Below are positions 10,141 to 64,000 of a stretch of 64,000 nucleotides of DNA, piece by piece. Below the pieces are notes generated by a model. The model had not been told where the DNA came from and ran no database searches. It saw only the letters and a program-made list of their open reading frames with translations. Numbering within the stretch: position 1 is the first letter of the stretch; each line of letters starts with the position of its first letter. Source of the DNA: Ehretia macrophylla (Eukaryota > Streptophyta > Magnoliopsida > Boraginales > Ehretiaceae); NCBI GenBank assembly GCA_037974665.1, contig CM075765.1, positions 17,187,648 through 17,251,647 on the forward strand, in the 5' to 3' direction. A program made the position numbers and the translations under genes.

Positions 10141-11162
10141 CCATTGCTAATGCTTCCCACATCATGGCAACAAAGATGCAAGATTCCAACAACTTCCTAG
10201 GGCCCCCACAAGCAATGAAGATGACGCTAATTAATTCGAAGTGATAAGAGGCTCCATCATGTGAGAGACAAATCAACTTTGCAATTCGCAAACATCATTC
10301 TTGTCCAAGAAAACCATTGTCGTACAATTCATTGCCAAATCCCCGTGTGCCTAAACTGCATTCCTTATCCAAATCTTTTTGACTTTCATGTTAGCCTCAC
10401 CTCGAGCTCCAAGTATTGATGCTAAGTCATTATCCCACTCACCATTAGCAAACAAATACGAGTGAGCGTATCCTCTCGTAACATAATAATGTTATAAGCA
10501 AGATCAACAATACTAAATTGTTCACATCATCAACAGTCATATATGAAGAACCCTTTAGAACATATTTTTGATAGGATACAAAATGAAAAATCTTACTAAA
10601 TTAACCAACTACATTTCAAGAGAACCTAGTAGCCAAGTAGACAAGCATATCCTCAACAGGTAAAACAAAATCTAATCAAGGAAAGTTCACAAGTTGGCAA
10701 GAAGGCATCAAATTTGCTCATTTCTTGACTAAATAAAAAGCATGCAGATTTGCTTGATTAATCAAATTCATGCTCGCATCACAAAATTTAGTCGACCAAA
10801 TTCGCGATAAGGTATCAATTTGTTCATTTCCATTGTGTTGACCATTGTTCATGATCACACTCTTCTTGAGTCCTCATCCACCAAGCAATTTGACAAACAT
10901 ATAAGAACACTAGCCAAGAAATGCAGCAAGTATATAACAATTGAAACACAGAAATGCAACTCTAAATAAGCATTAGATCTCTCTACTGTTAACAAGCACT
11001 ACACAAAGTTAATCCCAATTTAGATGCAACTAAGCCAGCCCACTACACACAATCAACTACAATTGTCAATAGTTAACACCAATCAAGAAAACAACAAACT
11101 CTTAAGCATAAATAGCACATCAGAAAGTTAAAACCAACTTGAATGTAAACCTCCAATTTTTC
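10141..11162. other. Region downstream of the HMGA-like gene
   Basis: About 1 kb without an open frame of note. The part nearest 11,162 is the presumed 3' UTR of the minus-strand gene at 11,163-12,290. The segment 10,140-10,400 has slightly higher GC and may be an old transposon relic, but I could not place it. Confidence 0.4.
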
Positions 11163-12290: not shown

Positions 12291-12329
12291 TGAAACTTAG
12301 CACAGAGAGAGGTTTCTGGAGTCCCCACA

Positions 12330-12362
12330 AAGAGAGAGAGAGCGAGAGAGAGAGAGAGAGAG
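12330..12362. repeat. (GA)n tract in the 5' leader of the HMGA-like gene
   Basis: A near-continuous AG repeat 40-70 bp upstream of the start codon at 12,290. GA/CT tracts are frequent in plant 5' leaders and core promoters; a regulatory role here is only possible. Confidence 0.6.
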
Positions 12363-23338: not shown

Positions 23339-24310
23339 GGTTACGTGGGTGGACCACTGTGTGTTGTGTGTGTCTGACTACTGTTGTTGTTGTTGTTGGA
23401 GTTGTAGTGAGGTGAGGTTAAACTGTGAATGAGTTTTTACTTTTTAGTAAAAAAGGGTTAATGAGGTTTTTTAGGTGGATTAGGCGATTAGGATTAGAGT
23501 TCGATGGAGTGTTTTGGGTGAGCGTTAGTCTCGGTGATTAAGGTTGAGACTTTGTAAACCCTGGGGGTGGTTAATTTACTTGGTTAATTCAATTTCTTAT
23601 TGGGCTAAAATTTGTAATTTTTTTTTCCCAAAATATGTTTCAAGAGCATGAGTAATTAATTTCGAAAAGAGAATTTAATTATCCTTTAGACCAACTCCAA
23701 CATCTTCTTTATTTTTTTCTCCCAACATGCAAGGTATTGAAAATATTTCCTTACATATAGAAATACCATATTTCAGTTTTATTATAATAATTTTCCTATA
23801 TTAATTAATCCCTAACTTTGGAGAATTCTTGTTTCAAGTTTACTCTAATATTTTCTCTACATTTAATTAATTCATAACTTTGGAGAGTTCATGTTTCAAG
23901 TTCACTCTAACAACTTCTCGATTTTAGTCATGCGACTGTTAGGAGGAATTGAGGACAAGATGTAGATGGTCTTTTTTCTATCAATTGTCGAGATATTAAA
24001 AATGAGTTTAACGATCCTTTTGTTGCTAATTAAAAAAAAACATTTAGGTTATTTGTTAAAGCTTATTTGTACAAAACAATTTCTTTTGTTGCTAATTAAA
24101 AAAAAAAATGCTAAGTACAAAATAATTTTCTTGCATGTAAGGTAAAGAAGCATTTAGGTTAGCTGTGGGAGTTAATATCCCTAATGTGACCTTATTTTGG
24201 GATGACAATTTATGCTCATATCTATCTAAAAGTTTGAACCTTTCAATTAAAAGTTTTAAAGTTAAAGTCCTAAGTTTCATATTAGGTTAAGTTTAGGTGC
24301 TAAAATCACT
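23339..24310. other. Upstream region of the STKL-like gene
   Basis: The first 100 bp carry a (TTG)n run (about 23,381-23,398) in the presumed 5' leader. Beyond it the DNA is AT-rich. Two short near-repeats around 23,815-23,900 (CTTTGGAGAATTCTTGTTTC and CTTTGGAGAGTTCATGTTTC) are seen. No gene. Confidence 0.45.
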
Positions 24311-27956: not shown

Positions 27957-28498
27957 GGAAAAGTTGCACATTTAGTCTCTATTGTTTTTCAAATGTCTCA
28001 ATTTAATCTTAATTGTTTAATTTTTTTTTTTAATTTAGTCTTTATTATTTTTCCAAAAATTTCAATTTGGTCCCCATTATTTAAAATTTTTCAAATTTGT
28101 TCCTATTATTTTTCTAAAAGGTTTCAATTTCATCTCTATTGTTTTAAAAAAGTTTCAATTTAATCTTTGTTATTTTCCTAAATGTTTTAATTTCGTCCCT
28201 ATTATTTTCGTAAAGTTTCAAATTAGTCTCTATTATTAAGAACTAAATTAAATTTTTTTGAGAAACAACATGAAAGAATTTGATTTTTTTAATAAAAATA
28301 ATAGAGACTAAATTGATTAATTTTAAATAATAGAGATAAATTTAAAATTTTAGAAAAATAATAAGGATGAAATTAAATTTTTTTTAAAAATAAAAGGGAT
28401 TAAATTGAGAAATTCAAAACAAAAAAAATCAAATTGAGATATTTTAAAAATAATAAAGATATTTTAGAAATAATAGGGAGTGAATGTGAGATTTTCCC
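27957..28498. mobile_element. Mutator-like MITE directly upstream of the PPR gene
   Basis: The left arm starts GGAAAAGTTGCACATTTAGT and the reversed right arm starts GGGAAAATCTCACATTCACT. Both arms continue with 'TCCCTATTATTTTT' phrases nearly to the middle, so the whole 542 bp can fold back. Flanks are TATAGTCTA (27,948-27,956) and TGTAGTCTA (28,499-28,507), a 9-bp duplication with one mismatch. The right end is only 43 bp from the PPR start codon. Confidence 0.7.
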
Positions 28499-28541
28499 TG
28501 TAGTCTATACAAGAACTCTCTCGTACCCCAATGTAATCAAA

Positions 28542-30251
28542 ATGGCCTCTCTCCTTCGCATCACTCCATCTTCAATTCCCCAATCAATCAACAAGCTTTC
28601 TCGCTTCTCTATTCACATCCACCCTTCAATCTCTTCAACAAAACCATCACAAACCAATGATGAAAACACCATTATCGCCTCTATATGCAACTCATTACAC
28701 AGAGGCCAAAACTGGGACACATTAACCCAAAGCTTCAACTCAATTCCCTTCACCAACTCACTTGTCCAAAACATACTTTTACACCTCAAAGAACCCATAA
28801 ATGCAAAAAAAGCACTCAACTTTTTCCATTGGTCAGCTCAACAAAAGCATTTCCAACACACCATTTCAACTTACTGCATCACAATTCATATATTAGTTAA
28901 GGCCAGGCTTGTCAAAGATGCCAAAGCCTTGCTTGAATCAATTTTGGCTAATGGCAGCGCGGTGCGCGAATCTCCTGCTACAAGTGGGGTTCGAGAAAGG
29001 GTCGGACTCACTTTGACAAAATTGTTTGAAAATGATGATAAAGTCCCAATTTTTGTTGTTCTTGATGCATTAATAGATAGTTATAAAGCTACTGATTCAA
29101 CCCCATTTGTGTTTGATTTGTTTATGCAAACTTGTGCCAAGTTGAGGTTGATTGATGATGTTGTTGAAGCATGTAATATCTTGGATGAAAATGGATTTAT
29201 GCTTAGTGTGGTGAGTTATAATACTATGCTTTATGTTATGCAAAAATCTGATAAGACTGGTTTGGTTTGGGTTGTATATGAGCATATGATTGAGAAAAGA
29301 AAATACCCAAATGAAAATACAGTTAAAATCATGGTTGATGCATTGTGTAAAGAAGGAAAATTGCAGAAGTTTGTTGATGTTGTGGATAGGATTGTTGGGA
29401 AGAGGTGTACTTCACCTCTTGTGGTTGTGAATACTTGTTTGGTGTATGGGATGATAGAAGAGGGTAGAATTGGAGATGGATTGGTTTTATTGAAGAGAAT
29501 GTTGCAGAAAAATATGATTCTTGATGTTATTGCTTACTCTTTGGTTGTTTTTGCTAAGGTGAAGATGGGGGATTTGGAGGCTGCCTGGCAGGTTTTTGAG
29601 GGAATGCTTAACAGAGGTTTTGATGGGAATGCTTTCGTGTATACCGTGTTTATTGGGGCGTATTGTGATGAAGGGAAAATTGAGGAAGCTATTGAAGTAT
29701 TTGAAGAAATGGAAAATTCGAGTTTCAAGCCGTTTGATGAAACATTTAATCATCTGATAAGGGGATGTTCTAGAGCAGCACGATTGGAGGAAAGCTTGAA
29801 GTTTTGTGAGAGAATGATTGCAATCGCACTTGTTCCTTGTTGTTCTGTTTTCAATGAGATGGTTGAGAAGCTATGTGGAAATGGATATACAAAGCGTGCT
29901 GATGAGGTGTTGACTGTTTTGCTGGAGAAGGGATTTGTTCCTGATGAGAATACTTATTCTCATCTAATATCTGGCTATGGAAAAGAAGAAAGTGTTGAGG
30001 ATGCTCTCAAGCTTTATTATGAGATGGAATACAAATCAATCTCTCCTGGTTCTTTGGCTTTCTGTTCATTGATTGTTGGTCTTTGTCAGCATAAAAGATT
30101 AAGGGAAGCGGAGAAGTTTCTACTGATATTGAAAGATCGATCATTAGTTCCGAATGCTTTTATTTATGAGACTCTAATTTCCACCTACTTGGAGAAGGGT
30201 GACGAGGTGAGGGCGCATGAGCTGTACAGTGAAATGTTAGGAGAACAATAA
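28542..30251 (+). CDS. P-class pentatricopeptide repeat protein, probably organelle-targeted
   Basis: Intronless, 569 residues from the ATG at 28,542 (MASLLRITPSSIPQSINKLS). An upstream ATG in frame at 28,434 is not used here because it lies inside the MITE. The N-terminus is rich in Ser, Arg and hydroxylated residues with no acidic residue in the first 35, as for mitochondrial or plastid presequences. From about residue 90 on the protein is built of 35-residue PPR units. Examples of the unit core are SYNTMLYVMQKSDKTGLVW, VYTVFIGAYCDEGKIEEAI, TFNHLIRGCSRAARLEESL and TYSHLISGYGKEESVEDAL. No E, E+ or DYW editing domain follows; the chain ends soon after the last repeat. P-class PPRs bind organelle RNA and act in stabilisation, splicing or translation. 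I do not assign an orthologue or RNA target. Confidence 0.9.
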   Translation: MASLLRITPSSIPQSINKLSRFSIHIHPSISSTKPSQTNDENTIIASICNSLHRGQNWDTLTQSFNSIPFTNSLVQNILLHLKEPINAKKALNFFHWSAQQKHFQHTISTYCITIHILVKARLVKDAKALLESILANGSAVRESPATSGVRERVGLTLTKLFENDDKVPIFVVLDALIDSYKATDSTPFVFDLFMQTCAKLRLIDDVVEACNILDENGFMLSVVSYNTMLYVMQKSDKTGLVWVVYEHMIEKRKYPNENTVKIMVDALCKEGKLQKFVDVVDRIVGKRCTSPLVVVNTCLVYGMIEEGRIGDGLVLLKRMLQKNMILDVIAYSLVVFAKVKMGDLEAAWQVFEGMLNRGFDGNAFVYTVFIGAYCDEGKIEEAIEVFEEMENSSFKPFDETFNHLIRGCSRAARLEESLKFCERMIAIALVPCCSVFNEMVEKLCGNGYTKRADEVLTVLLEKGFVPDENTYSHLISGYGKEESVEDALKLYYEMEYKSISPGSLAFCSLIVGLCQHKRLREAEKFLLILKDRSLVPNAFIYETLISTYLEKGDEVRAHELYSEMLGEQ

Positions 30252-36567: not shown

Positions 36568-38392
<1,825 letters not shown>

Positions 38393-42838: not shown

Positions 42839-43304
42839 TGACGAGGGATTCCCAAGCTGAAGTACGAATCCGTCCCGATTCGAAGCGGGCTAATCAGCTC
42901 CAAGGCCAGCGCGTTCAACTGAATGTCCAACCAGGATGACTGGCTCGACCCCGGAGACCCCGACCTCAGTTCCAACTGTTCCGATAGGACATAAAGCGCT
43001 GATGGGACATAAAGCTGCGCTGCATTAAATGCTGTCAGACCAGAACTTAGTATAAATAGAGTTCCATCCTCTTCATTTAAGGAGGTAACTCGTTATTAAA
43101 TACTCTCAGCTGCCTTGCCAGCTCGGACATATTAATCATTCGCACGCTCGAGGGGAAAATCCGGGTCATCACCCTGCCTTTTCTTTCTTTTTCTTGTGCA
43201 GGTCTGGAAGCCGTCCAGGAAAGTACAGCTCGGAGGCCGATCTGAAAAGTCCAGCTCGGCGCAAGTAGCTCCCAACTTTAACTGTGAGGTTTTCGACCTC
43301 GACA
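42839..43304 (+). mobile_element. 5' LTR of element B
   Basis: TGACGAGGG...CTCGACA, 466 bp, TG...CA ends. A TATA box (TATAAATAG) lies at 43,051-43,059, and short CTCGGAGGCCGA-type G/C blocks lie near the 3' end. Confidence 0.9.
43051..43059 (+). promoter_or_regulatory. TATA box in the 5' LTR of element B
   Basis: TATAAATAG, conserved in the 3' LTR at 52,424-52,432. It is the presumed start point region for genomic RNA. Confidence 0.65.
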
Positions 43305-43307
43305 GTT

Positions 43308-43325
43308 TGGCGCCGTCTGTGGGAA
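43308..43325 (+). promoter_or_regulatory. Primer-binding site of element B
   Basis: TGGCGCCGTCTGTGGGAA begins 4 bp after the LTR end. TGGCGCC is the usual start of PBS sequences in plant Tat/Athila elements, complementary to a tRNA 3' end; the exact tRNA is not assigned. Confidence 0.75.
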
Positions 43326-43387
43326 ATGACAAGTTCTTTTATAACTTTCTTCACCACTCATTGAGAAACCATTATTGTACAAACTAG

Positions 43388-45367
43388 AACCCACAGCACA
43401 CCGGTAAAGGATTCGATCAACCCGGAAGGGGACCTCAAAACCACGCAGGTGTCTAGCCAAAACCTAACCCAAGCCAACGTTGGAACAAGCCAATGTATAC
43501 ACTTAGCCACTCAAACCAACCCCGCAGCAGAAGGAGACCCCAACTCCAGCCTGTCACCGGAGATAAGGATGATGCTGAGGATGTTCGAGGAACTTAAGGA
43601 GCAGGTAGCCCGGCTAGCTGAGGGCCCCCTGGCTCCGCAAGAGGCTGTGCCGCGACCATCGCGTCCGCAATTCCACATCCCAGAGTCAAGGCGAAAACGG
43701 ACGCAGGACGAGGAGGGCTTCCTAGAGCCGATGGCGAGATCCGACGCGGCGAGAGGTAAAAGGGCGGCTCAAGCCGACCCCGAGCAGGCCAAGACCGCAG
43801 CTGCCATAGCCAAGGTCATCAACTAGCTCGGCGTAAGCCCACTCTCCCCCGAGGTACTGGCCACGCCACTGCCCACCGGCAACCGTATGCCCAACCTAGC
43901 CGTCTACAACGGAGATGGAGACCCAGCCAGCCACCTGCTTAATTTTGATCACCACATGACTCTGCATGACATGCCAGATCTCATGAAGACGAAGACATTC
44001 CCGACCACCCTGGTTGGCAATGCCTTGGATTGGTTCCAGAAACTTTGTCCCTGTTCAATTGCAAGTTTTCACCAGCTGGCTAAGGCTTTCCTGTCCCGCT
44101 TCGCTGGATGCCGGCGCGCCACCTGCCATACTTCTACATTGCTGCTGGTGAAACAACATAGAGGGAAAAGTTTGAGGGCTACACGGCCAGATTCAATGAA
44201 GAGTCCCTCCGAATTCCCAACCTGGAGGACTCCATGGTGTTAATGGCTTACCAGAGTGGGCTGAGGTCGGGCCTGCTCATGTCCTCCTTGGCAATCGACC
44301 CCGTGGACACTGTATCCGAGCTGATGGTACGAGCAGAAGGGTACATACACTCGGAGGAAATCCATCAGGCGAAAAGGGATTATGACAAGGAGAAGGAAGC
44401 CAGCAAGAAGGGAGAGGCCTCTCGAGCCCAACCTGGGGGTAAAGTCCAGAATGACCGAGGCAAGCAGCCTCAACAGCCAAAGCAGAACCCCCGGTTCACC
44501 ATGTTCACTCCCCTTAACACCTCGAGGGAGCAGATCCTGATGGAGATCCAACACCAGAACCACTTGCCTCTAGCTCTAAGGATGAAGGGCCGACCCGAGA
44601 AGCGCAATAGAATCAAGTATTGCCGCTACCACATGGACTACGGCCATACCACCGAAGAGTGTAAAGACTTGAAACAGGAGATTGAGACATTGATAGCCCG
44701 AGGCCACCTCCGGAGATATGTAGATCCGCAGCCGACCAGAAATCCCGACCAAAGGGATAGGGAGAGGAGTCCGCCCAGGCGCCAGGCTGGGGGCGGACGC
44801 TTGGCCGTGATTGAGACCATTGCGGGAGGATTGGCGTCAAGAGGAGAGACCTCAGCAGGCAGGAAGGGTTATGTTCGTGCTGGGAGGAAGTATGGACCGA
44901 TGCGGGGACCGGCCCCAGGGATGCAGGAGCTCACCTTCTCCTCAGAAGACCTGGAGGGGGTGATATTGCCTCATGACGACCCACTGGTGATCAGCGCTGA
45001 AATAGCCAACTTCACCGTCAAGAGGTTGATGGTGGACACCGAGAGCTCGGCAGAAGTCTTATTCCTTAGCGCTTTTGAGCAAATGGGGTTGGAAAGGAGC
45101 CGACTTAGGCCATTGAGGGGTACTTTAGTTGGTTTCACCGGGCAGTCCTACCGAGCCGAAGGGGTCATCAACCTCCCGCTGAAGCTGGAAGATGGAGATA
45201 AGTGGGCGTCGATGCAAGCCAACTTCATTGTGATGGATTGTAACTCCACTTACAATGGGATCTTAGGTCGGGTGGCACTCAATCACTTTAGGGCCGTCCC
45301 CTCACCTTACCACCAGGCCCTGAAATTCTCGACCCCGGCCGGCGTGGCCACCATTCGCGGAGCCTAA
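43388..45367 (+). pseudogene. gag-protease region of element B, interrupted
   Basis: No ATG is seen at the expected start; open sequence begins near 43,388. Gag core: PNLAVYNGDGDPASHLLNFD, LDWFQKLCPCSIASFHQLA and later LMAYQSGLRSGLL. The zinc-knuckle-like CRYHMDYGHTTEEC (about 44,620-44,660) is of the Tat form. The protease follows: its active site reads VDTESSAEVL at about 45,032-45,061, where family members have DTG, so the glycine is replaced by Glu (GAG at 45,041). Breaks are a TAG at 43,824-43,826, a frameshift between about 44,100 and 44,170, and a stop at 45,365-45,367. In living relatives gag-pol is one long frame. Confidence 0.85.
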
Positions 45368-45478
45368 CTCTCAGCTCGAGAATGTTATGAAAACTCACTC
45401 TGGCCCAAGTATCAAATCGGTTGGGGACCAGATCTGCCCGAAGAAAAGAGAGGAAGCTCGGCTGAAGACCTTTAAGAG

Positions 45479-48400
45479 GTGGAGCTCTCTGATGAAACCA
45501 AGAGGGCAAAGATCGGGAGTGAACTCTCTGCCAACCTCAAGAAAGGTATAAGCCAATTCTTCTTAAAGAATGGACATATATTTGCCTGGTCTGCCTCTGA
45601 CATGACAGGAATTGACCCAGATGTAATTGAGCATCACCTGAATGCCGACCCAAATCACTATCTGGTAAAGCAAAAGCGTCGGCACTTCCATTATGACAGG
45701 CAACAAATCATAACAGAAGAAGTGGACAAGTTAGTGGACGCCGGCCATATCAAGGAATACAGTACCCAACCTGATTATCCAATGTGGTGCTGGTGACTAA
45801 GTTCTCGGGTGGATGGAGACTGTGTATTGACTTCACCGACCTCAACAAAGCCTGCCCTAAGGACTGTTTTTCCCTACCACGGATCGATCAGATGGTGGAC
45901 GCCACCTCCGGATTTGAGCTACTCTCTTTCATGGATGCCTTCAAAGGCTATAAGCAAATCAAGATGGCTCCCGGAGACAAAGAGAAGACCGCCTTCACTA
46001 CCGATAAAGGGCTCTACTACTATGAGGTCATGCCTTTTGGCCTCAAGAATGCTGGAGCTACCTACACTCGGATGGTGAACAAGTTCTTCAAAAATCAGAT
46101 TGGCCGGAATATGGAAATCTATGTAGATGACATGTTGGTCAAGAGCAGAAGGGTGGAAGACCATGTAGACGGCCTGGCCGAAGCCTTCGCCGTAATGGAG
46201 CACTTTGGGATAAAGCTGAACCCGGAAAAGTGCGCATTCGGCGTCAAGGCAGGCAACATCCTGCGCTTCATGGTCACAGCCCGCGGAATAGAAACCAACC
46301 CGGAGAAAGTCCAGGCGATACTCGACCTGGCCCCGCCGACCTGCGTGAAGGACGTCCAGGTGTTAGCATGTAAGGTCGCAGCATTGAGCAGATCCATGTC
46401 TAGGTTGGCTGACAAGTGTGCTCCTTTGTTCAAGATATTGAGGAATCCTAAGAACTTTGAATGGACTGAGGAATGCCAGAACGCCTTCCAAGAGCTGAAA
46501 AGGTACCTAGCTTCGCCACCTCTGTTGTCCCGACCTGAGGTGGGGAAGGAGTTGGTACTATATTTAGCATGCTCAGGAACAGCAGTGGCGGCGGCACTAG
46601 TCCGAGAAGAAGGAAAGGAGCAGAAACCTGTCTATTATGTTAGCAAAACCTTGCAAGAGGCCGAGGCAAGATACTCATCCTTGGAAAAACTCGCCCTCGC
46701 GCTCATCACAGCGGCAAGAAAGTTGAAGCCATACTTTGTCGCTCATCCAGTTAAGGTCATGACGGATGCCCCGCTCAAGTCTATCATGCACAAGCCTGAG
46801 GCGTCGGGCAGGCTACTGAAATGGACAGTTGAGCTGAGTCAATTTGACATCACCTACCAGCCCAGAATAGCCATTAAAGCCCAAGTCATCGCGGACTTTG
46901 TGGTAGAATGCACTGGCCGAGCAAAGCATGACTCGGAGGACGTGTGGAAGGTCTATGTGGATGGGGCCTCAGGGAAGTTCGAAAGCGGAGCTGGGGTGGT
47001 CATCCTCGACCCAACTAGGCATGAACACCAATACTCCCTGAAGTTCACATTTTCGGCGTCCAACAACGAAGCAGAATACGAAGCAGTGATTGTAGGACTG
47101 AAAATTGTAGCTCAGCTCGGGACACAAACAGTCGACCTGAGCACTGACTCTCAACTAGTTTCTAATCAGATATCGGGAGAGTTCGAAGCCAAGGACAGTG
47201 CTATGCTGGCCTACCTCAACAGAGTCAAGGATTTGACCTCGGGGCTCAGAAGGTTCACGATACAGCAGATTCCCAGGGAAGAGAATATGAAGACTGATAC
47301 CTTGTCCAGGTTGGCCTTGGGCGAGAGCCAACCTGCCCTGGTCCATGTTGAAGAAGTATCTAAACCCATTATTCAGTTGGGGGTGCAAGCCATAGCTGAG
47401 CTCAATCTAAGTCTAGATTGGACCAAACCAATCGTGGACTACTTGGAGGGGGTATGACCCCAGAAGATGAAAAATTAGCTCGGAAGCTCATGAAACAGGC
47501 CTCAAGGTTTGTCATAATTGCTGGGCAACTCTATAAGAGAGCCTACACTTGGCCTCTCTTGAAATGTGTTGGACCCGAAGAGGGAAACTATGTATTCCAG
47601 GAGATTCACGAAGGGGTATGTGGAAACTACTTGGAAGGCAAAGCTCTGGCTCGGAAGGCATTAAGGCAATGCTATTTTTGGCCAACCTTAGAGCAGGATG
47701 CCAAAGAGTATGTAAAAAAGTGCGACATCTGCTAGAGGTTCGCCAATGTACAGAGGAAGCCTGCTCTGGACCTCACAGTGATGGTAAGCCCATGGCCATT
47801 CTATCAGTGGGGTCTAGACATCATCGGCCCATTGTCGACCGGTGTCAGCCAAAAGAAGCACGCCTTCGTAGTTGTAGACTACTTCACTAAATGGCCCGAG
47901 GCTGAATGTGTTGCTAGAATAACAGAAAATGCAGCCTGGGATTTCGTATGGAAAAACATCATTTGCCGATTTGGGGTGCCAAAGGTCATCATCACTGACC
48001 ACGGCAAACAATTCGACAGTGCATACTTTCGAGGCAAATGTGCTGAGATTGGGATCGACCTCAGATTCTCATCTATTGCTCACCCTCAAAGTAATGGCCA
48101 AGTTGAAAGGACTAACCAAATCATTTTGCAGGGCCTGAAAACCAAGCTGGAGGAAGCGGAGGGCCAATGGGCATCAATTCTTCCCGAGGTGTTGTGGGCT
48201 CAGCGGACCAACACCAGCTCGGCAACGGGAGAATCGCCCTTCGAACTGACCTTCGGCACTCAAGCGGTGCTGCCAGTGGAGATCGGGTCTCCGACCAGTA
48301 GAACCCTCCACCATGATCCAGAAACAAACGGAGCACGGATCCGTGAAGAGCTCGACCTCGCTGAAGAGCTTCGAGCTAAAGCTCAAATCAGAATGCTGGC

Positions 48401-48647
48401 CAGCAAAGCTGCCATGCAAAGGGCCTTTGCCAAACAGGTTAAGCCCAAGCCTATTAAGGTTGGCAATCTCGTGCTCAGGAAGGCTATCTTTTCGTCGCGT
48501 TCTAGTAACAAGCTTTCCCCGACTTGGGAGGGACCCTATGAAGTCGTGAAAGAAGTCCGACCCGAGACCTTCTACCTTCGCAACAAGAACGGGAAACTAT
48601 TGAAGAACGCATGGCACTCGGAACACCTGAACCAGGATTTTGTCTAG
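45479..48647 (+). pseudogene. pol of element B: RT, RNase H, archaeal-type RNase H, integrase
   Basis: RT begins at about 45,630 (VIEHHLNADPN). It has CIDFTDLNKACPKD, FGLKNAGATY and the catalytic YVDD (46,120-46,131). RNase H is at about 46,540-46,900. The second RNase H (46,940-47,310) has VYVDGASG, NNEAEYEA and TDSQLV. Integrase follows with HEGVCGNY...CDIC, where the second zinc His is Tyr. The DDE triad is present (LDIIGPL, TDHGKQF, GQVERTN), and a chromodomain-free C-terminus ends at 48,647. Breaks are a 1-nt frameshift at about 45,775-45,785, another in a G-run near 47,447, and a TAG after CDIC at 47,733-47,735. RT and RNase H residues themselves look intact. Confidence 0.9.
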
Positions 48648-48648
48648 T

Positions 48649-48830
48649 GGCCCCGAGCCGAAATACTTGGTAACGGCCCCGAGCCGAAATACTTGGTAAC
48701 GGCCCCGAGCTGAAATACTTTGTAACGGACTCGAGCCGAAATACTTGGTAACGGCCCCAAGCCAGAATATTTTGTAACAGCCCCGAGCCGAGAAATCTTG
48801 TAAAGGCCCTGGGCCAAGACATTGCTTGTA
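48649..48830 (+). repeat. 26-bp tandem repeat array after pol of element B
   Basis: About seven units modelled on GGCCCCGAGCCGAAATACTT followed by GGTAAC. The first three are almost identical and later ones are more diverged. The stop codon of pol lies 2-4 bp before the array. The homologous place in element A keeps two worn units. Confidence 0.85.
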
Positions 48831-49454
48831 CAAACTCAATACAAATGCATCTTTACATACAAGTACAACTCCCGACCTGGGAATAAGCACCAAAACCAGC
48901 GCAATGGCCGACCCGGGCCTAAATTGCCTCAGCTACAAAGCTACTACCAACTCAGATTAACACGGTGGCCACGCTTGATCACGAGCTAATGATCAATAAA
49001 ACCGGCTCGGACGAAGTTCCAGCTAGGGCATAATCGATAATAATTTGTTAAGTTTTTCCAGTTCGGATTGAGTTCCAACTCTTTTTAAATCCGGCTTCAA
49101 GTCGGTATGTTAGTTTGGGGTCCGAACTCGAGCTTAACGTTTGTCAACATTAGTTTGACCAGTTTTAAATCGGACTGACGAGTCCAGGTCGGCGACGATT
49201 AAACAGTTGCCCAATTAACCAGCTCGGATTAGGGTGTTAATTCACTAGTCGCGTCCAGCTCGGTTCATTACGCTTAAGTTTGTATGGTCCATTAAATTGG
49301 TCCGACCCCAGTTACTTAAGAAAATTTTGTGAAGAGAAAGATACGCGCGTACAAACTCGACTAAAACGCAAACAAAAGTAAAATAGATATTTCATTAATA
49401 CTAAAATCAATTACACAAGCCCGACCCGGGCGACTTTAAAAAAAGAAATTATTA
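48831..49454. other. Spacer of element B between the tandem array and the antisense gene
   Basis: No open frame of note. 'AGCTCGG' and 'GACCCGGGC' type phrases recur, in line with the GC-richer base use of the element. It would contain the 3' UTR of the antisense gene. Confidence 0.5.
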
Positions 49455-51789
49455 TTATTTAGGAGCAGCGGTGGAGGTGGTGGCCTCGGCTACATCCCCG
49501 ACCTAGTCTATACCCTTCTCGACGAACGCCAGCACCTCTTTGGCCTGGGACGTCAGGTCGGCCGGTAGCTCGGGAATCGCCCAGAATTCCGGAGGCGGGG
49601 CCTCCAAGATCTTAATATAATCGTTCTTGGCGGCAGGGAAAAAGGACTTCGCTCTTTCGCGAGCTGCAGCCTGGCCTCGGAAGTAGTACTCCAACTCGGC
49701 GTACCGGGCCATCACCCCACCCTCAGTGGCTAACCAGTCCACAGCCTCTTGGCTGGACTTAAAGTCCTCCACTGCCTTCTTCCCTCGCGGGCCGACCTGA
49801 TCCAAGAGGTCCTTATGCTTCGCTTAGGCCTCGCGCTTCTCCCGCTTGTAGCGCTCAACGTCCTTGGCTGCGGCCTCGTGCCGGGACTTCTCAGCCTCGA
49901 GCTCCTTCGTTAGCCGGGCGATCTCCGCTTCATCCGCTTTATGCCTCTGGGCTGCATCCGTCCTAAAGGACTCCAGCTCGGCTCGGGAATCTGTGTAGCG
50001 CTGCTCGAGCTTCACACAGTAAGTCTGGGCCCGGGCAAGCAGGCCAGGCGCCGAAAGGATGTGGGACTCAGCCTGCGCGGAAGAAAGCAAAGTGGTTAGT
50101 CAAAGTAATCAACAAAAGAAACAATGACAGCATGTCTGGGTATGTCTTACCGTAACTATGGCCGTCCTCAGGTCAAGTGAAAGCTGCTCCGCCGAGACTG
50201 ACCCCAGCTTGGGATCACATGCAACCTTTGCAGCCTCCACAAAATCCTTATTTAGAGGGCTCACCTCCGCGACCTTGCCCCTCCCGGAGTACTCGGGCCG
50301 GGGCCGTTTCCTGTTGTCAGGACGGGATGCCGAGCGCTCGAGGATCGCTACACCCGAGCTCATTTTCTTTGTCAAAGGAGATCCCGACAAGATCTCTGCG
50401 CCAACCTCCCACGCATGGCCCCCGGGCCGTTGCCTCAGCTCCTGAGGGACGGAGCCAAAACCGGACAGAGCCGACCCCTTGCCACTGGCGTCGGGCTTTC
50501 TCCTTCTCTGGAGGTACGCGAGCTTCACCGTATCTGCCATGCCTACAAAAACAAATGAAAAGAAGGTAAAAAATGACCAATTACCAATCGAGAAGAGCAA
50601 CGACAAACTAGGAAATGGGGAGGTCGGGCATTGATCCTGCGAACTGACCCTCTTTTGAGTCAGAATGAGCGTTCTCTTCAGGCTCAGGAAGCAAGTGTGG
50701 GTGCTCTTCGCTCAGGTCGGGTTCTCTCCCGAATAACTTGGACTTCCATATCCTGTCCTACCTGAGGACACTATCGATGTCGATCAGCATACCCGGCTCG
50801 GGCCTCAGCACGCTGACCTCGGCGAGTTCCTCTTTGGAAAGCTTGGGGTCGTCATTCAAAGTCTTTTCCAGTGAAAGATTCCAGTCCATCCTGCACCCCG
50901 AGTTCACTGTCGACTCGACCCAATAGTAGTCGTTGTGCCAGCCCTTGTTAGAGGAGTGCCACTTGGTGAATATGGCATTGTTGACTCGAGCCACGAAGTG
51001 GAACCAGCCTTGCTGCTCCGGGTTGGGCTTGCAAACGAAAAAATGCCTGAAACGGCGCAAGGTTGGCTCTATCTTTTTCTCGAGGCAGAACACGAAGAAT
51101 GCCAACATTATGGCCCAACCGTTTGGTGACATCTGACCCGGGCTAAGCTCAAAGTAGTTCAAAATGCCTGTAATGAAGCTGGGAAGTGGAAGGCGGACGA
51201 CATCAAAGGCGAGGTCATAAATCGTAAAGTGATCGGACGGAGAATAGCAGGCAGGGTCATTCTGACCAGGGACCTTCAGTTTGTGGTGTCGGTCCACCAA
51301 CCAGTCTCTCAGCCGAGCATTGGCCATCTCGATGGTTGAATGACACTCGCGCTGGCAACAAGCGAATAACTGCTCTATCCTCTTCCCCCGACTTGACGAA
51401 CCACTGGCTGTAGCTGAGCTCCGAGGTTGGACTGCCCTAATCGGGATCGTTGCAGTCGGCTCCGAGGCGGAAACTCCAGCTAAGTACTCATGTGGTATCT
51501 CGACCCCCTCCAACTTGTTCAATGGCTCGTCGTCCTCTCCATCCCCCAAGTTTCCCAGGTCGGCCAAATGATTTGCCTCGGCCTCTTCTTTCGCCATTCT
51601 GACCCCTATAACCTGGCAGTCATCATCGCTCTCCCGGGGCATGGATTTCCGAGCTGACCCTGAAGACGAACTGGTCATCTCTCCACCATGGACCCTATTC
51701 GAGGTAGACTCCGAGCTCGACGGACTCTCGTTTACACCGTAGCACCTTACTTCTATAGCTCGAGAATCTTCCGACTCCGACCTCCCCAT
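49455..51789 (-). pseudogene. Spliced antisense accessory gene of element B (gypsy-type 'Transposase_28'-like)
   Basis: Three exons by GT-AG reading: 50,649-51,789; 50,151-50,542; about 49,455-50,072. Exon 1 (MGRSESEDSRAIEVRCYG) carries an acidic/Ser-rich N-terminus, then the conserved core LPSFITGILNYFELSPGQ with GWAIMLAFFVFC, then WFHFVARVN and a W-rich block. This is the domain I know as PF04195-like 'putative gypsy type transposon'. Exon 2 is basic (RRRKPDASGK, NRKRPRPE). Exon 3 is a coiled coil (SHILSAPGLLARAQ, then E/K/R heptads) ending in ARYAELEYYFRGQ. In-frame stops at about 50,757 (a Trp codon in element A), 49,823 and 49,501 disable this copy. Intron position and phase equal those of element A. 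The protein's role is unknown. Confidence 0.8.
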
Positions 51790-52008
51790 CCTATCTACAG
51801 ACTAAATATAAATGAACAGGAATGACTAAAGGGAGTCGGGACGTACCTACTGCTCTTGATTGCAGAGGGCGACCGACCAAGCTGGCTCCAAGTTGACAAA
51901 TCCCGAGAAGATTCCTTCTAAGCTAATTGCTTCCGACCACTCTGGTGGCCGACCTAAAATTCTTGAGGGATTGAAAGCGAAATATGGAATGAATCTCGGA
52001 TGTCAAAG

Positions 52009-52021
52009 CCCTATTTATAGG
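52009..52021 (-). promoter_or_regulatory. TATA box of the antisense gene (element B)
   Basis: Minus-strand CCTATAAATAGGG, then CTTTGACATCC, 220 bp upstream of the ATG at 51,789. Same core and same spacing class as at 6106-6118. Confidence 0.6.
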
Positions 52022-52199
52022 CGCCCCTGAAAGTCGCCTCGGGAAGCCCAAACGTCGCGTCTCGTCAGAACCGCCAGGTGACGTGTCAGCCATCCGTTGG
52101 GCATGCACCGCTGACATGGCCATCCCTGCTCTCTCAGGGTCGGACACCTACAGCTCGGGAGGAACTGCTAATTCTAGATCTCACCCTCTCGATCTCGAC

Positions 52200-52213
52200 T
52201 TGGGGGAGGGAAT
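52200..52213 (+). promoter_or_regulatory. Polypurine tract of element B
   Basis: TGGGGGAGGGAAT directly before the TG of the 3' LTR. Confidence 0.75.
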
Positions 52214-52677
52214 TGACGAGGGGTTCCCGAGCTGAGGGAGAATCCGTCCCGAGCCGAAGCGGCTAATCAGCGCCAAGGCCAGCGCGTTGAACTGAATATC
52301 CAACCAGGATGACTGGCCCGACCCCGGATACCCCGACCTCAGTTCCAGTTGTTCCGATGGGACATAAAGTGCTGATGAGACATAAAGCTGCGCTGCATTA
52401 AATGCTGTCAGACCAGAACTTAGTATAAATAGAGCTCCACCCTCTTCATTTAATGAGGTAACTCGTTATTAAATACTCTCAGCTAACTTGCCAGCTCGGA
52501 CATACTAATCATTCGCACGCTCAAGGGAAAAATCCGGGTCATCACCCCGCCTTTTCCTTCTTTTCCTTGTGCAGGTTTGGTAGCCGACCTGGAAAGTACA
52601 GCTCGGAGGCCGACCTGAAAAGTCCAGCTCGGCGCAAGTAGCTCCCAACTTCAACTGCGAGGTTTTCGACCTCGACA
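52214..52677 (+). mobile_element. 3' LTR of element B
   Basis: 464 bp, TGACGAGGGG...CTCGACA. It is about 93 percent identical to the 5' LTR by hand count, most changes being transitions. TATA box at 52,424-52,432. Confidence 0.9.
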
Positions 52678-53210: not shown

Positions 53211-53700
53211 GGTAGCGATTAGTACACTATAATGAGGTTAAGAATGCAATGACATTTTCAACTCTATTGGATTCTCATACTTGGTATGAATGAATGAACT
53301 TGAAAATCTCATTCTCTCTCATTCCCTCGTACATGAGATTAGCCATTCCAGAGTAAACACATAAGATTAGTTCACTTATTTCTAAAATGATTAACATGCC
53401 CCCATAAATATATAACTTTTATATATAGTTTCTTTTGAAATAATAATAATAATAATAATAAAAGAATAGCAATAATAATAACAATACAAATAAAATAACA
53501 ATAACAATAATTAAATAATAATAAAAAAATAAAAAAATAATATAATAATAATTATTATTATCATTATTACAAAAATAATAATAATAAAAATAATAAATAA
53601 TGAACCAACAATAATAATAAAAACCAAAATAAAAATAAAAATAAAAATAATAACATAATAAATAATAATAATAACATTAATAATAAAAATAGTAAAAATA

Positions 53701-53743
<43 letters not shown>

Positions 53744-54339
53744 TTAAATGATATTAATAAAACTAAAAAAAATAACAATATAATTATAATAATAATAACA
53801 TTAATAAAAAATTAATAAAAATAATAATAATAATAATGATTATTATAATTATTACAATAATAATAAAAAATAAAAAATATTAAAAATATTAAAATAATAA
53901 TAAATAATAATAAAAATTAAAATTAAAAATAATATTAAAAAATTAAAAAAAATAATAATAATAGCATTATTATTATTATTATTATAATAGTAATAGTAGT
54001 AATAGTAATAATAATTATAATTGTTATTATTATTATTATTTATTATGTTTATTATATTTATATATGTTATTTACGATTATATTCATGTTTATTTTTATTA
54101 TAATACTATAATAATAAAAAAATATCTCTGCCATATTATACAAGTCATTCTCATTGTTACTTTTGTATACCGACTACCAAATATGAGTTTGGAATCAATA
54201 TATCCATTCATATCTTTATTTTTAGAGCATATTAAGCATGTCATTTTCATTATCAAATTCATTTCATTCTCAGTTTCATTCCATTCCTTAGCTCATTCCA
54301 TTCTTGTTTAAATTCATTTACAGTATACTAATCGCTACC
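53211..54339. mobile_element. PIF/Harbinger-like TIR element with long AAT microsatellite
   Basis: The left end GGTAGCGATTAGTACACTAT and the reversed right end GGTAGCGATTAGTATACTGT match over about 18 bp with one difference. TAA flanks both sides (53,208-53,210 and 54,340-54,342). The middle (about 53,440-54,045) is almost wholly AAT/AAAT repeat. It is a second member of the family seen at 34,692-35,588. Non-coding. Confidence 0.75.
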
Positions 54340-59372: not shown

Positions 59373-59469
59373 TGATACGTATAAAACCCCTGAACTTTTA
59401 CAGAATTACAAATTGGCCCAAGCTAGCCCAAACTTAAAAGCCGGCCCCACCAACGATACGTTCCGTGGT

Positions 59470-59905
59470 CCAACGAACCTCGGACCGAGAGATCCGAGGT
59501 CCAAGAGACCTCGGAATTAAATAGTCCGAGGTCCCTTGGCCCTCGGAATTTCTGTCCGAGGCCCAAGAGACCTCGGACAAAGCCTGTCCGAGGTCTCTTG
59601 GCCCTCGGACTTTCTGTCCGAGGTCCAAGGGACCTCGGAATAATTTAATCCGAGGTCCCTTGTCCGAGGTCCAAGAGACCTCGGACAAATCTTGTCCGAG
59701 GTCTCTTGGACCTCGGATGTACTGTCCGAGGTCCATGGACCTCGGACAGATTTGTCCGAGGTCCAAGGACCTCGGACCAGTGGTGTCCGAGGTCCATGGA
59801 CCTCGGACAGCTTTGTCCGAGGTCCATGGACCTCGGACCAGTGATGTCCGAGGTCTACGGACCTCGGACGTTTATTTTCCGAGGTCCTGTGGACCTCGGA
59901 CAGGT
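59470..59905. repeat. Array of palindromic CCGAGGTCC units in the LTR of element C
   Basis: Successive inverted units of CCGAGGTCC and GGACCTCGG at roughly 30-bp spacing, about fifteen in total. Several are perfect 20-bp palindromes, CCGAGGTCCATGGACCTCGG, at 59,726-59,745, 59,787-59,806 and 59,817-59,836. Others have AAGAGA or TACG at the centre. The same array fills 63,106-63,600 in the 3' LTR. Open frames here are artefacts. Confidence 0.9.
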
Positions 59906-60212
59906 TTTCTGGAGCAGGTTCGGGTTTTCGGGTTTTGGTCGTCGTGCGTGGAGAGACTTTTTTTGGGTCAGGCGAGGTAGAGCTGTCTGAGCTACCTTTT
60001 TTGTACTAGTATACTTTGTTCCATAAACTCAGAGAATCTCCAGCAAAACTCCCACTGATCTATTTAATCAATTGTCCACCAGTCCTTTGTCAATTTTCCA
60101 CAATGCTTGTAATGATGATTCACTGCTGCACCTTTAATCTTTTGACTCAGCTGCAATGATTACTTTTCCTTTGTGACTCAGCAAACCATGTGACTTCAAA
60201 GGCCATGATGCC

Positions 60213-60220
60213 TATAAAAG
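60213..60220 (+). promoter_or_regulatory. TATA box in the 5' LTR of element C
   Basis: TATAAAAG, 209 bp before the LTR end and conserved at 63,910-63,917 in the 3' LTR. Confidence 0.65.
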
Positions 60221-60424
60221 GCAGAGGATTTAGCCAGAGAGGGGGGACTTCTGAGACACACATTAATACATACATATATTCTTCTTTTTCTGAAAAAGCA
60301 TCAAGCTAATTTAAGCATCGGAGTGCTAATGCGGGCAAGACCCGCTAAGCTCTCTTTGTTTTGCAGGTATCAAGGCAGTGCGTGAAGGCCACTTGCGACC
60401 CGTCATTTTTCTACCTTAACAGGT

Positions 60425-60442
60425 TGGCGCCCACTGTGGGGC
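60425..60442 (+). promoter_or_regulatory. Primer-binding site of element C
   Basis: TGGCGCCCACTGTGGGGC, 3 bp after the LTR end. This is a common PBS form of plant Ty3/gypsy elements. Confidence 0.75.
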
Positions 60443-60482
60443 CGATTTTAAATTCCCCACTGAGTTTTCACAAGATTACACC

Positions 60483-61682
60483 ATGGTAACTACCCGGAGC
60501 CAAAATGTTGCAAGTGGATATGGAGGAGAAGCTGTAGAACAGCCAAATGTGCCGTTCTGTCTGGGAGAGACTTCCAACCTTAGACAGACCGAGTTACCGC
60601 CGCCAGGAGGAGAGATACCTACGGAAAATCGTCCACCATACAGCAATCCATACACAAATCAGTACCAAAGCTACCAACCAATATACTATCCACAAGGACC
60701 TGTTTGGAACACAGGGTGGCAGTATCCCACTGCTGCAACACAAGTTCAGCAAACTAACCAGCTAACAGATATTGGTTATATCCTAAAAACCCTGGAGGAG
60801 TTGAAACAGGCTGTTCATAATCTAACACCTCAACCAGCACCTCACCACCCAGATATTCAACCTCATCAAACGCACCGGAAAAATCATTCGCGCCAAACCA
60901 CCCAATCAGCCAGAAATACAACCAAACCAAGAGAGTCCAAACAACGGGTTCACGCTAGGGGGCAACGCAAAGAAACGATGAACTCCACAAGGTCATCACA
61001 GAGTTCGAATGCGGCAGCACGTGACCTAACTCAAAGTACCCGAATAAGGGGTACTGCTAGTGTAATATCGGTGGCAAGGACTTTTCGAGGCCCAAATCCC
61101 TTCAACCGCGCCATCAACAAGGTTCCGAAGCCCGCACAGTACAAATTGCCTCATTTGCCCACCTATGATGGACATGGAGACCCTAAAGATCATTTGGCGG
61201 TGTTCAGGCACAAAATGGAGTTCACGGAGTTGCCAGAGGCTTGGGTGTGTAAAGCTTTTGCAGGAACTTTAGTGGAGGCGGCCAGGGTGTGGTATGACGA
61301 ACTGAACGAGGGGGCAGTCGGTTCTTTTATGTAAGTAGTGGATTTGTTTGTTGGGAGATTTTCCTCGGCTATTAGGCCGACCCGCCACACTACCTCCTTG
61401 CTCGGTTTGAAGCAGAGAGAAGGAGAAACTCTCCGTCGGTATGCCACTCGCTTTAATGAGGCAACCCTTCAGTGTGCACAATTTGATCAGGGTTTTGCAA
61501 TACAGGCGTTCACAAAGGGGGTAACAAATGAGTTGCTCCAGGCTTCCTTAGCCAAAAAGACCCCACAGAACATGATAGAATTGATGACCAGAGCCGAGAA
61601 GTATATTAAAGTAGAAGAGGTGGCGATAGCGGAGAAGGAAGAAGACTCTAAGAAGAGAAGATCGGAAGAGAGGTCAAGCTAG
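60483..61682 (+). pseudogene. gag of element C with one in-frame stop
   Basis: The ATG at 60,483 has a good context (ACCATGG). The N-terminal 180 residues are Gln/Pro/Tyr/Thr-rich and unstructured. The retrotransposon gag domain follows: PKPAQYKLPHLPTYDGHGDP, KAFAGTLVEAARVWYDEL, and after a break LKQREGETLRRYATRF and ELMTRAEKYIKVEE. A TAA at 61,332-61,334 stops the frame in the middle of the domain; reading continues in the same frame to 61,682. No zinc knuckle is seen before the end. Because the stop splits the capsid-like domain it is more likely a mutation than a programmed read-through site. Confidence 0.85.
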
Positions 61683-61974
61683 GAGCCTACAGATTCGAAG
61701 ACCTCGGCGGTAAGGAATTGAGAAAGGTTTGACACATAGAGCGGCTAAGAAAACACTCTTTGAAGGTTTAATTGTTGTTTATGTTGAGACAAATTATGTC
61801 TCTACAATGAATTGATATTCGCGTCCTAAGTTTCTTTAAATGATTGTAAATTCTTTGAGACAAATATCATGTGGTCTACTAAGGCAAACCTTTATCGGAA
61901 GAAAGTCAAATCCTGAAATAGGAGACCAACTTGCCAAAATAGATAAAAGAGAGAGACACACTTCTTGCGGATCT

Positions 61975-62735
61975 TGCCGGGGGCACGACCCCCGAGTTTC
62001 AAAACAAAGGCTGGGGGCACGACCCCCGAGTTTCAAGTTCGAAGACGAAGACTGGGGGCCCGCCCCCCGCGTTTCAAAACGAAGGCCGGGGGCACGACCC
62101 CCGAGTTTCAAGTTCGAAGACGAAGACTGGGGGCACGACCCCCGCGTTTCAAAACGAAGGCCGGGGGCACGACCCCCGAGTTTCAAGTTCGAAGACGAAG
62201 ACTGGGGGCACGACCCCCGAGTTTCAAAACAAAGGCTGGGGGCACGACCCCCGAGTTTCAAGTTCGAAGACGAAGACTGGGGGCACGACCCCCGCGTTTC
62301 AAAACGAAGGCCGGGGGCACGACCCCCGAGTTTCAAGTTCGAAGACGAAGACTGGGGGCACGACCCCCGCGTTTCAAAACGAAGGCCGGGGGCACGACCC
62401 CCGAGTTTCAAGTTCGAAGACGAAGACTGGGGGCACGACCCCCGAGTTTCAAATACGAAGGCCGGGGGCACGACCCCCGAGTTTCAAAAACAAAGGCCGG
62501 GGGCACGACCCCCGAGTTTCAAATACAAAGGCCAGGGGCAGGGCCCCCGAGTTTTCAAAACGAGGGCGGGGGGCACGCCCCCCGAGTTTCAAAAAACGAA
62601 GGCCGGGGGCACGACCCCCGAGTTTCCAAGGCAAAGGCAGGGGGTACGACCCCCGAACCTCAAAAACGAAAACCGGAGGTCCGGGGCACGACCCCGACCC
62701 ACGTCTGGGGTTCAATGCTGGGGGCACGACCCCCA
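61975..62735. repeat. Hairpin-rich tandem array (GGGGGCACGACCCCC core) in element C
   Basis: About 21 cores of GGGGGCACGACCCCC, each able to form a 5-bp G/C stem. In the first part (61,979-62,429) they alternate at 34 and 41 bp, making a 75-bp higher-order unit (GAGTTTCAAGTTCGAAGACG in one spacer, GCGTTTCAAAACGAAGG in the other). Afterwards single units of about 35 bp follow and degrade. As 75 is a multiple of 3, long frames stay open on both strands; these are not taken as genes. Confidence 0.88.
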
Positions 62736-63005
62736 GAGTCATCAAAATTATCCTTCAACAATAAAGGATTTCAGAAAAATATGACCCAACAAAAGAAATT
62801 GAGTACAGGAGGGAAAACCAAGGGTTTCAAATCCTCATCATTTCAAAAGTCACTGCACCAGATCTTGACAAGTGACAAGGCTGCATTATTGGTGGTAGGT
62901 GACAAATTGCATAGAAGATAAAGCAGAGTTAAAATAATTTATTGACTAGATTCGACTTTGCTAAAGCATCACAATCAGTTCCCAAACCTATTTTATAGCT
63001 CAAGG
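62736..63005. other. 3' internal part of element C
   Basis: Non-coding, A-rich, no motif recognised. Confidence 0.5.
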
Positions 63006-63021
63006 AACTGAGGGGGCATCA
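63006..63021 (+). promoter_or_regulatory. Polypurine tract of element C
   Basis: AACTGAGGGGGCATCA precedes the TG of the 3' LTR. It is short and includes pyrimidines at its end. Confidence 0.55.
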
Positions 63022-64000
63022 TGATACGTATAAAACCCCTGAACTTTTACAGAATTACAAATTGGCACAAGATAGCCCAAAATTAAAAGACGGCGCCACC
63101 AACGATAAGGTCCGAGGTCCAACGAACCTCGGACCGAGAGATCCGAGGTCCAAGAGACCTCGGAATTAAATAGTCCGAGGTCCCTTGGACCTCGGAATTT
63201 CTGTCCGAGGTCCAAGAGACCTCGGACAAAGCCTGTCCGAGGTCTCTTGGACCTCGGACTTTTTGTCCGAGGTCCAAGAGACCTCGGAATAATTTAATCC
63301 GAGGTCCCTTGGACCTCGGACAAATCTTGTCCGAGGTCCAAGAGACCTCGGATGTACTGTCCGAGGTCCATGGACCTCGGACAGATTTGTCCGAGGTCCA
63401 AGGACCTCGGACATTTGCTGTCCGAGGTCCATGGACCTCGGACAGCTTTGTTCGAGGTCCAAGGACCTCGGACCAGTGATGTTCGAGGGCCATGGAGCTC
63501 GGACCAGTGGTGTCCGAGGTCCATGGCCCCCCCCCCAGTGATGTCCGAGGTCTACGGACCTCGGACGTTTATTTTCCGAGGTCCTGTGGACCTCGGACAG
63601 GCTTTCTGGAGCAGGTTCGGGTTTTCGGGTTTTGGTCGTCGTGCGCGGAGAGACTTTTTTTGGGTCAGGCGAGGTAGAGCTGTCTGAGCTACCTTTTTTG
63701 TACTAGTATACTTTGTTCCGTAAACTCAGAGAATCTCCAGCAAAACTCCCACTGATCTATTTAATCAATTGTCCACCAGTCCTTTGTCAATTTTCCACAA
63801 TGCTTGTAATGATGATTCACTGCTGCACCTTTAATCTTTTGACTCAGCTGCAATGATTACTTTTCCTTTGTGACTCAGCAAACCATGTGACTTCAAAAGC
63901 CATGATGCCTATAAAAGGCAGAGGATTTAGCCAGAGAGGGGGGACTTCTGAGACACACATTAATACATACATATATTCTTCTTTTTCTGAAAAAGCACCA
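63022..64000 (+). mobile_element. 3' LTR of element C, incomplete at the window edge
   Basis: It repeats the 5' LTR from TGATACGTATAAAACCCC up to GAAAAAGCACCA. It includes the palindrome array (63,106-63,600), with small differences such as a C-run at about 63,527-63,536 in place of part of one palindrome. Confidence 0.88.

Follow-up and report, generated by a model that had tools for sequence, protein, structure and literature searches.

A Tat/Retand-type long terminal repeat (LTR) retrotransposon, which we name element B, lies in a 64,000-nucleotide stretch of the genome of Ehretia macrophylla (GenBank assembly GCA_037974665.1, contig CM075765.1, positions 17,187,648 to 17,251,647). We call this whole stretch the window, and our coordinates refer to it. 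On its antisense strand the element carries an accessory gene of the TRP28 class. It is probable, judging from the sequence, that this gene is promoted separately and spliced, with a TATA box, a leader poor in ATG codons and three exons. In many copies it looks equipped with its own promoter and two removable introns, a hint that such elements may produce an additional protein independently of their usual genes. That this protein is under purifying selection is clear.

The antisense gene in elements B and A

The gene sits, on the minus strand, between the end of the integrase open reading frame (ORF), at 48,647, and the 3' LTR. In copy B its parts are these:

52,009-52,021, minus strand: TATA-box core CCTATAAATAGGG, outside the LTR, the inner boundary of the 3' LTR being about 190 bp away
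51,839-51,848, minus strand: leader motif AGGTACGTCC, with a splice-donor-like AG/GTACGT (51,847/51,846)
50,649-51,789, minus strand: exon 1, 1,141 nt, with ATG at 51,789-51,787, an acidic N-terminus and the TRP28 domain at residues 198-254
50,543-50,648, minus strand: intron 1, 106 nt, GT-AG, phase 1, 44% T
50,151-50,542, minus strand: exon 2, 392 nt, basic, with RKRPRP resembling a nuclear localization signal (NLS)
50,540-50,538, minus strand: exon-2 ATG, two bases past acceptor 1
50,073-50,150, minus strand: intron 2, 78 nt, GT-AG, phase 0, 38% T, with a branch-point-like ACTAAC
49,455-50,072, minus strand: exon 3, 615 coding nt (50,072-49,458) and TAA (49,457-49,455), with a heptad-like stretch and a conserved C-terminus

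The three exons add up to a protein of about 716 amino acids. Above the Pfam cut-off of 26.2 bits the gene has a single domain, Transposase_28 (TRP28, PF04195) in exon 1, with scores of 43.7 bits for B and 46.2 bits for A, the diverged relative described below; the Pfam scan gave no match at all in exon 2 and none above cut-off in exon 3. An initial annotation of this DNA had described three exons reading through GT-AG sites. Exons and introns do lie on the minus strand where it had placed them, but the frame of copy B is broken by three in-frame stops, TAG at 50,760-50,758 in exon 1, and TAA at 49,826-49,824 and TAG at 49,505-49,503 in exon 3. It was right in calling exon 2 basic (isoelectric point 10.0, net charge +8); for the coiled coil that it saw in exon 3, the sequence shows a heptad-like stretch.

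A diverged element, A, about 46 kb from B, carries the same antisense gene, TRP28 domain included:

6,106-6,118, minus strand: TATA core, identical in its 13 bases to that of B
5,925-5,934, minus strand: leader motif AGGTACGTCC, identical to that of B
4,735-5,872, minus strand: exon 1 homologue, with TRP28 domain, a frameshift and stops
4,641-4,734, minus strand: intron 1, 94 nt, phase 1
4,237-4,640, minus strand: exon 2 homologue
4,166-4,236, minus strand: intron 2, 71 nt, phase 0 (donor 4,236-4,235, acceptor 4,167-4,166)
3,537-4,165, minus strand: exon 3 homologue, frameshifted, its end approximate

Alignment places both introns of A and B at a homologous codon and in equal phase, so that what had been claimed of the first intron holds, and extends to the second. 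The two proteins are 39-53% identical depending on the segment. Over 688 aligned codon pairs (the segments overlap slightly), the differences fall on the three codon positions as 248/213/383, with a proportion of nonsynonymous differences (pN) of 0.32 and of synonymous differences (pS) of 0.71. The TATA core is found upstream in both elements, as had been proposed: CCTATAAATAGGG occurs exactly twice in the window, both times on the minus strand, at 52,021-52,009 and 6,118-6,106, that is, 220-232 bp upstream of the ATG in B and 234-246 bp in A. The leader motif AGGTACGTCC similarly has two exact sites in the window, one in each element.

Elsewhere in the genome, five A-type copies of the gene, 77-79% identical to that of A, follow one another on the same strand at intervals of about 71-88 kb (G000:C7:89,715,653-90,030,383). 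Such a spacing would fit the tandem duplication of a large segment.

Conservation among copies and selection on the protein

The genome searched comprises 1.58 Gb in 20 contigs, and three sets of copies were drawn from it. A B-family set of 40 rows is made of B and 39 other places among the matches listed (a first look gave 2,355 candidates); an A-type set of 22 rows is made of A, B and 20 of 39 other places among the matches listed; finally, eight further places come from 20 picked by eye for their unlike leaders among about 100 listed matches to a TATA-leader motif, so that the presence of TATA box and leader in these eight is a criterion of selection. The sampling of families thus relied on DNA similarity and on the promoter-leader pattern.

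Across these 67 other places the ATG, the GT-AG sites and the TATA box are mostly kept, and the conserved promoter-like TATA outside the LTR, coupled with a conserved intron structure, which the initial annotation had put forward, recurs in most of them. Among the 40 B-family rows, 39 have the ATG, 39 the GT of donor 1, 38 the AG of acceptor 1, 37 the GT of donor 2 and 37 the AG of acceptor 2. All eight further places start with ATGG(G/A)GAGGTC, and seven align across the remainder (L083 is disrupted), with the four splice sites present in seven, seven, six and seven of them, in the same order. The A-type set has GT at each donor in 20 rows of 22 and AG at each acceptor in 17. When spliced junctions were used as queries against the 67 copies, no unspliced copy came closer than four mismatches.

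Selection on the protein is visible in the A-type set, where the median pairwise ratio of nonsynonymous to synonymous substitution rates (dN/dS) is 0.12 for exon 1 (214 scorable pairs of 231), 0.26 for exon 2 (189 of 210, with a range of 0.08-0.77) and 0.15 for exon 3 (161 of 171), the pairs not being independent. The two shifted frames give 1.22/1.07, 0.83/0.97 and 1.00/1.21 for the same exons. L057 was omitted from exon 2, and L057, L064 and L072 from exon 3, as were pairs with saturated dS or fewer than 60 codons. A dN/dS near 1 and unconserved splice sites had been named at the outset as the sequence-level signs that would speak against the gene; neither was observed.

The B family adds a view of how changes are distributed among copies. 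There, singleton changes are near neutral, 221 synonymous and 465 nonsynonymous or stop, a ratio (N/S) of 2.10, for a neutral expectation of 2.24 when C>T and G>A are raised sixfold and of 3.34 with equal rates. From singletons to changes found in at least eight copies, the ratio for all exons runs 2.10, 1.87, 1.27, 0.90 and 0.34 (Fisher p 2.4e-7), this last class holding 29 synonymous and 10 nonsynonymous changes, with N/S of 0.30, 0.33 and 0.40 for exons 1, 2 and 3. The fall is unsteady in exon 2 (1.59, 2.47, 1.76, 0.86, 0.33), and singletons are uneven by codon position (189/136/179, p 0.009), so that the picture is not wholly smooth. Two rows, L011 and L027, with a large rearrangement in exons 2 and 3, were set aside from the frame and codon counts of the B family, leaving 38 of 40. 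Neutral singletons together with constrained shared changes point to selection acting on the copies that multiply, followed by decay after insertion, and the broken state of copy B is for this reason no argument against the gene.

The same codon pattern appears in nine rows made of the seven alignable further places, A and B, the disrupted L083 being left out. Shared variable sites are distributed by codon position as 90/78/254 in exon 1, 47/34/90 in exon 2 and 43/34/89 in exon 3, with introns 1 and 2 flat (18/19/15 and 15/16/12) and the leader also devoid of codon periodicity (23/27/23). In B no in-frame ATG occurs among the first 110 codons of exon 3, and these codons are frame-constrained (shared variable columns 42/27/78). 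This constraint ahead of any ATG is the best sequence argument that splicing reaches exon 3, and unspliced translation is no adequate explanation of it.

Upstream of the coding region, the 13-base TATA core is exact in 32 of the 40 B-family rows and its part TATAAATA in 37; TATAAATA is exact in 14 of the 22 A-type-set rows. The leader motif AG/GTACGT is conserved as well as the TATA box. Its AGGTACGT is kept by 35 of the 40 rows of the B family and by 15 of the 22 in the A-type set, and among 8-mers upstream of the ATG the conservation of GGTACGTC (0.943) and AGGTACGT (0.938), both within the leader motif, stands beside that of the best TATA 8-mer (0.932). The two signals also go together: the pattern TATAAATAGGGC-N(160-190)-GGTACGTCC has 432 + 429 = 861 exact matches in the genome, while a backward control has 0. 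Finally, ATGs are scarce in the leader, with four in the 20 leaders scored in the A-type set (L058 and L070 have no measurable leader), compared with a mean of 13.6 and a minimum of 5 in 500 shuffles.

How the gene may work, and competing explanations

If the gene is indeed promoted and spliced as we propose, RNA polymerase II would start about 30 bp downstream of the TATA box and, with that box about 190 bp from the 3' LTR, transcription would begin outside the LTR. A leader of about 150 nt, poor in ATGs, would head the transcript, from which two introns would then be removed. Its product would display, in order, an acidic N-terminus, TRP28, a basic NLS-like segment and a heptad-like C-terminal part, and would presumably be destined for the nucleus. 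The antisense orientation would let the introns persist through retrotransposition, because the sense RNA that is reverse transcribed reads them as CT...AC and leaves them in place, each new copy inheriting a gene that can still be spliced. An intron in the sense orientation, by contrast, is lost at every cycle, which is the basis of retrotransposition reporters (PMC12786077), and where sense introns are known to persist, as they do in Ogre, their splicing is incomplete (PMC6317226). This would provide a simple reason for the antisense placement: on that strand introns can be spliced out completely and still remain in an element that multiplies through RNA. As for the role of the product, we suggest tentatively, as a possibility that falls short of an even chance, that it is a coiled-coil, nucleic-acid-binding regulator of the transcription or silencing of the element, which would benefit at least in part the copy that encodes it, since selection is visible despite nearly all copies being broken.

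Several observations weigh against this account of a separately promoted, spliced gene and its product. Synonymous divergence (dS) of A from B comes close to saturation. Not every copy keeps its splice sites, as witnessed by the acceptors of the A-type set, each lacking its AG in part of the rows. The whole frame is open in only one of the 38 scored B-family rows, which makes nearly all these copies unable to produce the full protein; the mapping ignores insertions, so that even this count is an upper bound, and a separate alignment gave one open frame in 21. The eight further leaders hold three ATGs. GT-AG sites can also persist through shared descent; the divergence of A from B and of their introns argues against mere shared descent, but single sites may still reflect it. 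The AlphaFold2 model of the TRP28 region, built solely from sequences of the window (B and three open stretches of A), is unusable, with a mean predicted local distance difference test score (pLDDT) of 37, and DNA binding by the product would follow from a published predictor and from composition.

Two alternative explanations concern the leader motif. Its donor (51,847/51,846) might splice also to acceptor 1 (50,543), skipping exon 1, whereby one promoter would serve two proteins: a second mRNA, starting translation at the exon-2 ATG, would yield a short protein of about 335 amino acids, basic and with the heptads but lacking TRP28. We consider this rather doubtful, although a number of features would fit it. 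The motif contains the best conserved upstream 8-mers, leaders are poor in ATGs, and no other methionine position of the A-type set is kept as well as the exon-2 ATG (20 of 22 rows, the next best having 18 and the exon-1 ATG 16), which is also present in 38 of 40 B-family rows and six of seven further places; at the codon level it ranks second of the 129 exon-2 codons in the A-type set. At the amino-acid level, by contrast, this methionine is not exceptional: it takes 11th place among the 129 codons of exon 2 and 101st among all 692, its codon comes 13th of 129 in the B family, and it may be an ordinary conserved residue; the conserved block, about GTACGTCCCGACTCCCTTTAG, is also longer than a splice donor needs. 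Were there two proteins, the element would use a retrovirus-like leader-donor strategy on precisely the strand whose introns are spared by reverse transcription of sense RNA. The same donor might instead open an intron of about 50-58 nt in the 5' untranslated region (5'UTR), ending just before the exon-1 ATG, which we find unlikely. An AG does lie 43-57 nt past the motif, ahead of that ATG, in A, B and all eight further places, and this counts against the two-protein arrangement, but 16 of the 22 A-type-set rows, which for the most part retain the motif or one close to it, have no AG between 30 nt past the motif and the ATG. A short 5'UTR intron is impossible in these rows, and as the sole meaning of the motif we rejected it for them; their lack of AG favours in turn a donor that reaches further. 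A length of 50-58 nt is, besides, short for a plant intron.

Other explanations do away with the spliced gene or with its protein. That there are three separate antisense ORFs, with GT-AG sites incidental, would agree with exon 2 beginning with ATG and with a survey that counts 104 antisense ORFs in 63 clusters (PMC11963269); it is very unlikely in view of an exon 3 that lacks an ATG near its start and is frame-constrained from its first codons, and of phase-matched donors and acceptors that recur in diverged families. A function of the antisense RNA itself, as double-stranded RNA or through interference with sense transcription, has been proposed for this gene class (PMC7264820). Strong selection at the protein level in all three exons makes it most unlikely as the explanation here: the codon pattern renders an RNA function insufficient alone, while leaving room for one beside the protein. 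Introns and a promoter of its own look gene-like, and the initial annotation had spoken of a host-like gene carried by the element. Capture of a host gene is extremely improbable, and we abandon that description, as nothing here speaks for a host origin: no domain other than TRP28 passes the cut-off, and TRP28 is reported to be confined to transposable elements and to have no similarity outside them (PMC11963269); exon 1 has no convincing relative of solved structure, a sequence search of the PDB returning two matches, with E values of 0.57 and 0.59, that we judged to be chance (no search was made among the host genes of this genome).

Known systems and the surroundings of the gene

Extra ORFs of this class were already known, as the initial annotation noted. 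In the Retand survey at least one antisense ORF is reported in every representative of the 63 larger clusters, with TRP28 in all but two (97%) (PMC11963269); another study has pfam04195 in 23% of Retand elements (PMC6317226). The gene of B resembles these antisense ORFs by its place between pol and the 3' LTR, its orientation, its TRP28 domain, the neighbouring tandem array and sizes within the published range. The survey differs in its method, ORF finding instead of spliced-gene models, and its main text has no match for 'intron' or 'TATA', with 'splic', 'exon' and 'promoter' found only in the reference list (PMC11963269). Surveys based on ORFs may have scored one spliced gene as several, and some of the separate antisense ORFs with Smc-type matches may be downstream exons of the gene described here.

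Related accessory genes have been considered individually. For Silene Retand, ORF4 is an antisense ORF with a transposase 28 domain and a reportedly weak expression (Kejnovsky 2006, via PMC7264820); in maize Grande, gene23 reportedly has a promoter of its own, upstream, that drives its transcription, and a nuclear product (Gomez-Orte 2013, via PMC7264820). Likeness to gene23 lies in an antisense accessory gene located in the 3' internal region, the conserved TATA box and leader being consistent with a promoter of its own here too; to its nuclear product may correspond, in our case, only the NLS-like RKRPRP of exon 2. A comparison of working, with no relation of sequence, may also be drawn with HBZ of human T-cell leukaemia virus type 1 (HTLV-1), which is spliced and encodes a basic leucine zipper: an antisense gene, a promoter of its own and a basic, coiled-coil product. 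HBZ is located in the nucleus (PMC11963269), and the antisense promoter of HTLV lies inside the 3' LTR (PMC7264820), whereas the TATA box of the B gene is outside it.

In the literature searched (titles and the starts of abstracts, the founding papers on gene23 and Silene Retand not being covered), no introns are described in these antisense genes. As far as we have seen, then, the gene class itself is known, and what appears to be new is the two-intron structure, the pair of TATA box and leader donor, and the conserved exon-2 ATG, which together allow, without showing it, a second mRNA made by alternative splicing. A paper that shares an author, Vicient, with that on gene23 calls for a search for antisense and spliced transcripts (PMC7264820). 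The copies compared here provide for this the precise positions of the predicted junctions, a TATA box and leader donor that recur across families, and signs of selection on the protein itself.

Element B itself is delimited as follows:

42,839-52,677, plus strand: element B, Tat/Retand-type LTR retrotransposon (from self-comparison, ends and domains)
42,839-43,304 (466 bp) and 52,214-52,677 (464 bp): its LTRs, with TG...CA ends
48,649-48,809, plus strand: 26-bp tandem array of about six copies, adjoining the 3' end of the integrase

It is flanked by ATATC and ATTTC, 5 bp each and identical in four of the five. The LTR pair shows 37 differences in 469 aligned columns, a Kimura two-parameter (K2P) distance of 0.084 (the aligned segments run a few bases past the LTR ends). 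Substitution rates of 1.3e-8 and 7e-9 per site per year place the insertion at about 3.2 and about 6.0 million years ago, respectively. Pfam domains on the plus strand identify a reverse transcriptase, two RNase H-like domains and an integrase. The pol piece has an RNase H-like match at residues 230-357 and, at 396-513, before the integrase, an RVT_3 match that we take to be the archaeal-type RNase H. Retand elements are marked by an additional RNase H (aRH) that separates RNase H from integrase (PMC6317226), a feature that Ogre shares. The antisense TRP28 ORF expected in Retand between pol and the 3' LTR is present, on the minus strand, as the 43.7-bit match to PF04195. The dimensions of B, with LTRs of 466 and 464 bp, an internal region of 8,909 bp and about 3,566 bp from pol to the 3' LTR, fit the Retand ranges of 315-1,194, 7,380-12,869 and 2,933-6,566 bp, and a tandem array in the same region is a frequent Retand feature (PMC11963269).

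About 760 bp past the 3' LTR of element B lies a long, imperfect AAT microsatellite of about 197 units (53,439-54,021). Further on, a short element (59,373-63,810) is bounded by long direct repeats, 59,373-60,113 and 63,022-63,810, 88-97% alike by piece and made of repeated inverted TCCGAGGTCC units. It contains one ORF (60,420-61,334) without Pfam match, gag-like by its position, and a 75-bp tandem array (61,979-62,626); perhaps it is a non-autonomous LTR element. The window also holds host-type genes recognized by Pfam, coding for a linker-histone domain (11,163-11,729), a GeBP-like DNA-binding protein (22,169-23,377), a pentatricopeptide repeat (PPR) protein (28,404-30,251) and a polyprenyl synthetase (37,217-38,392).

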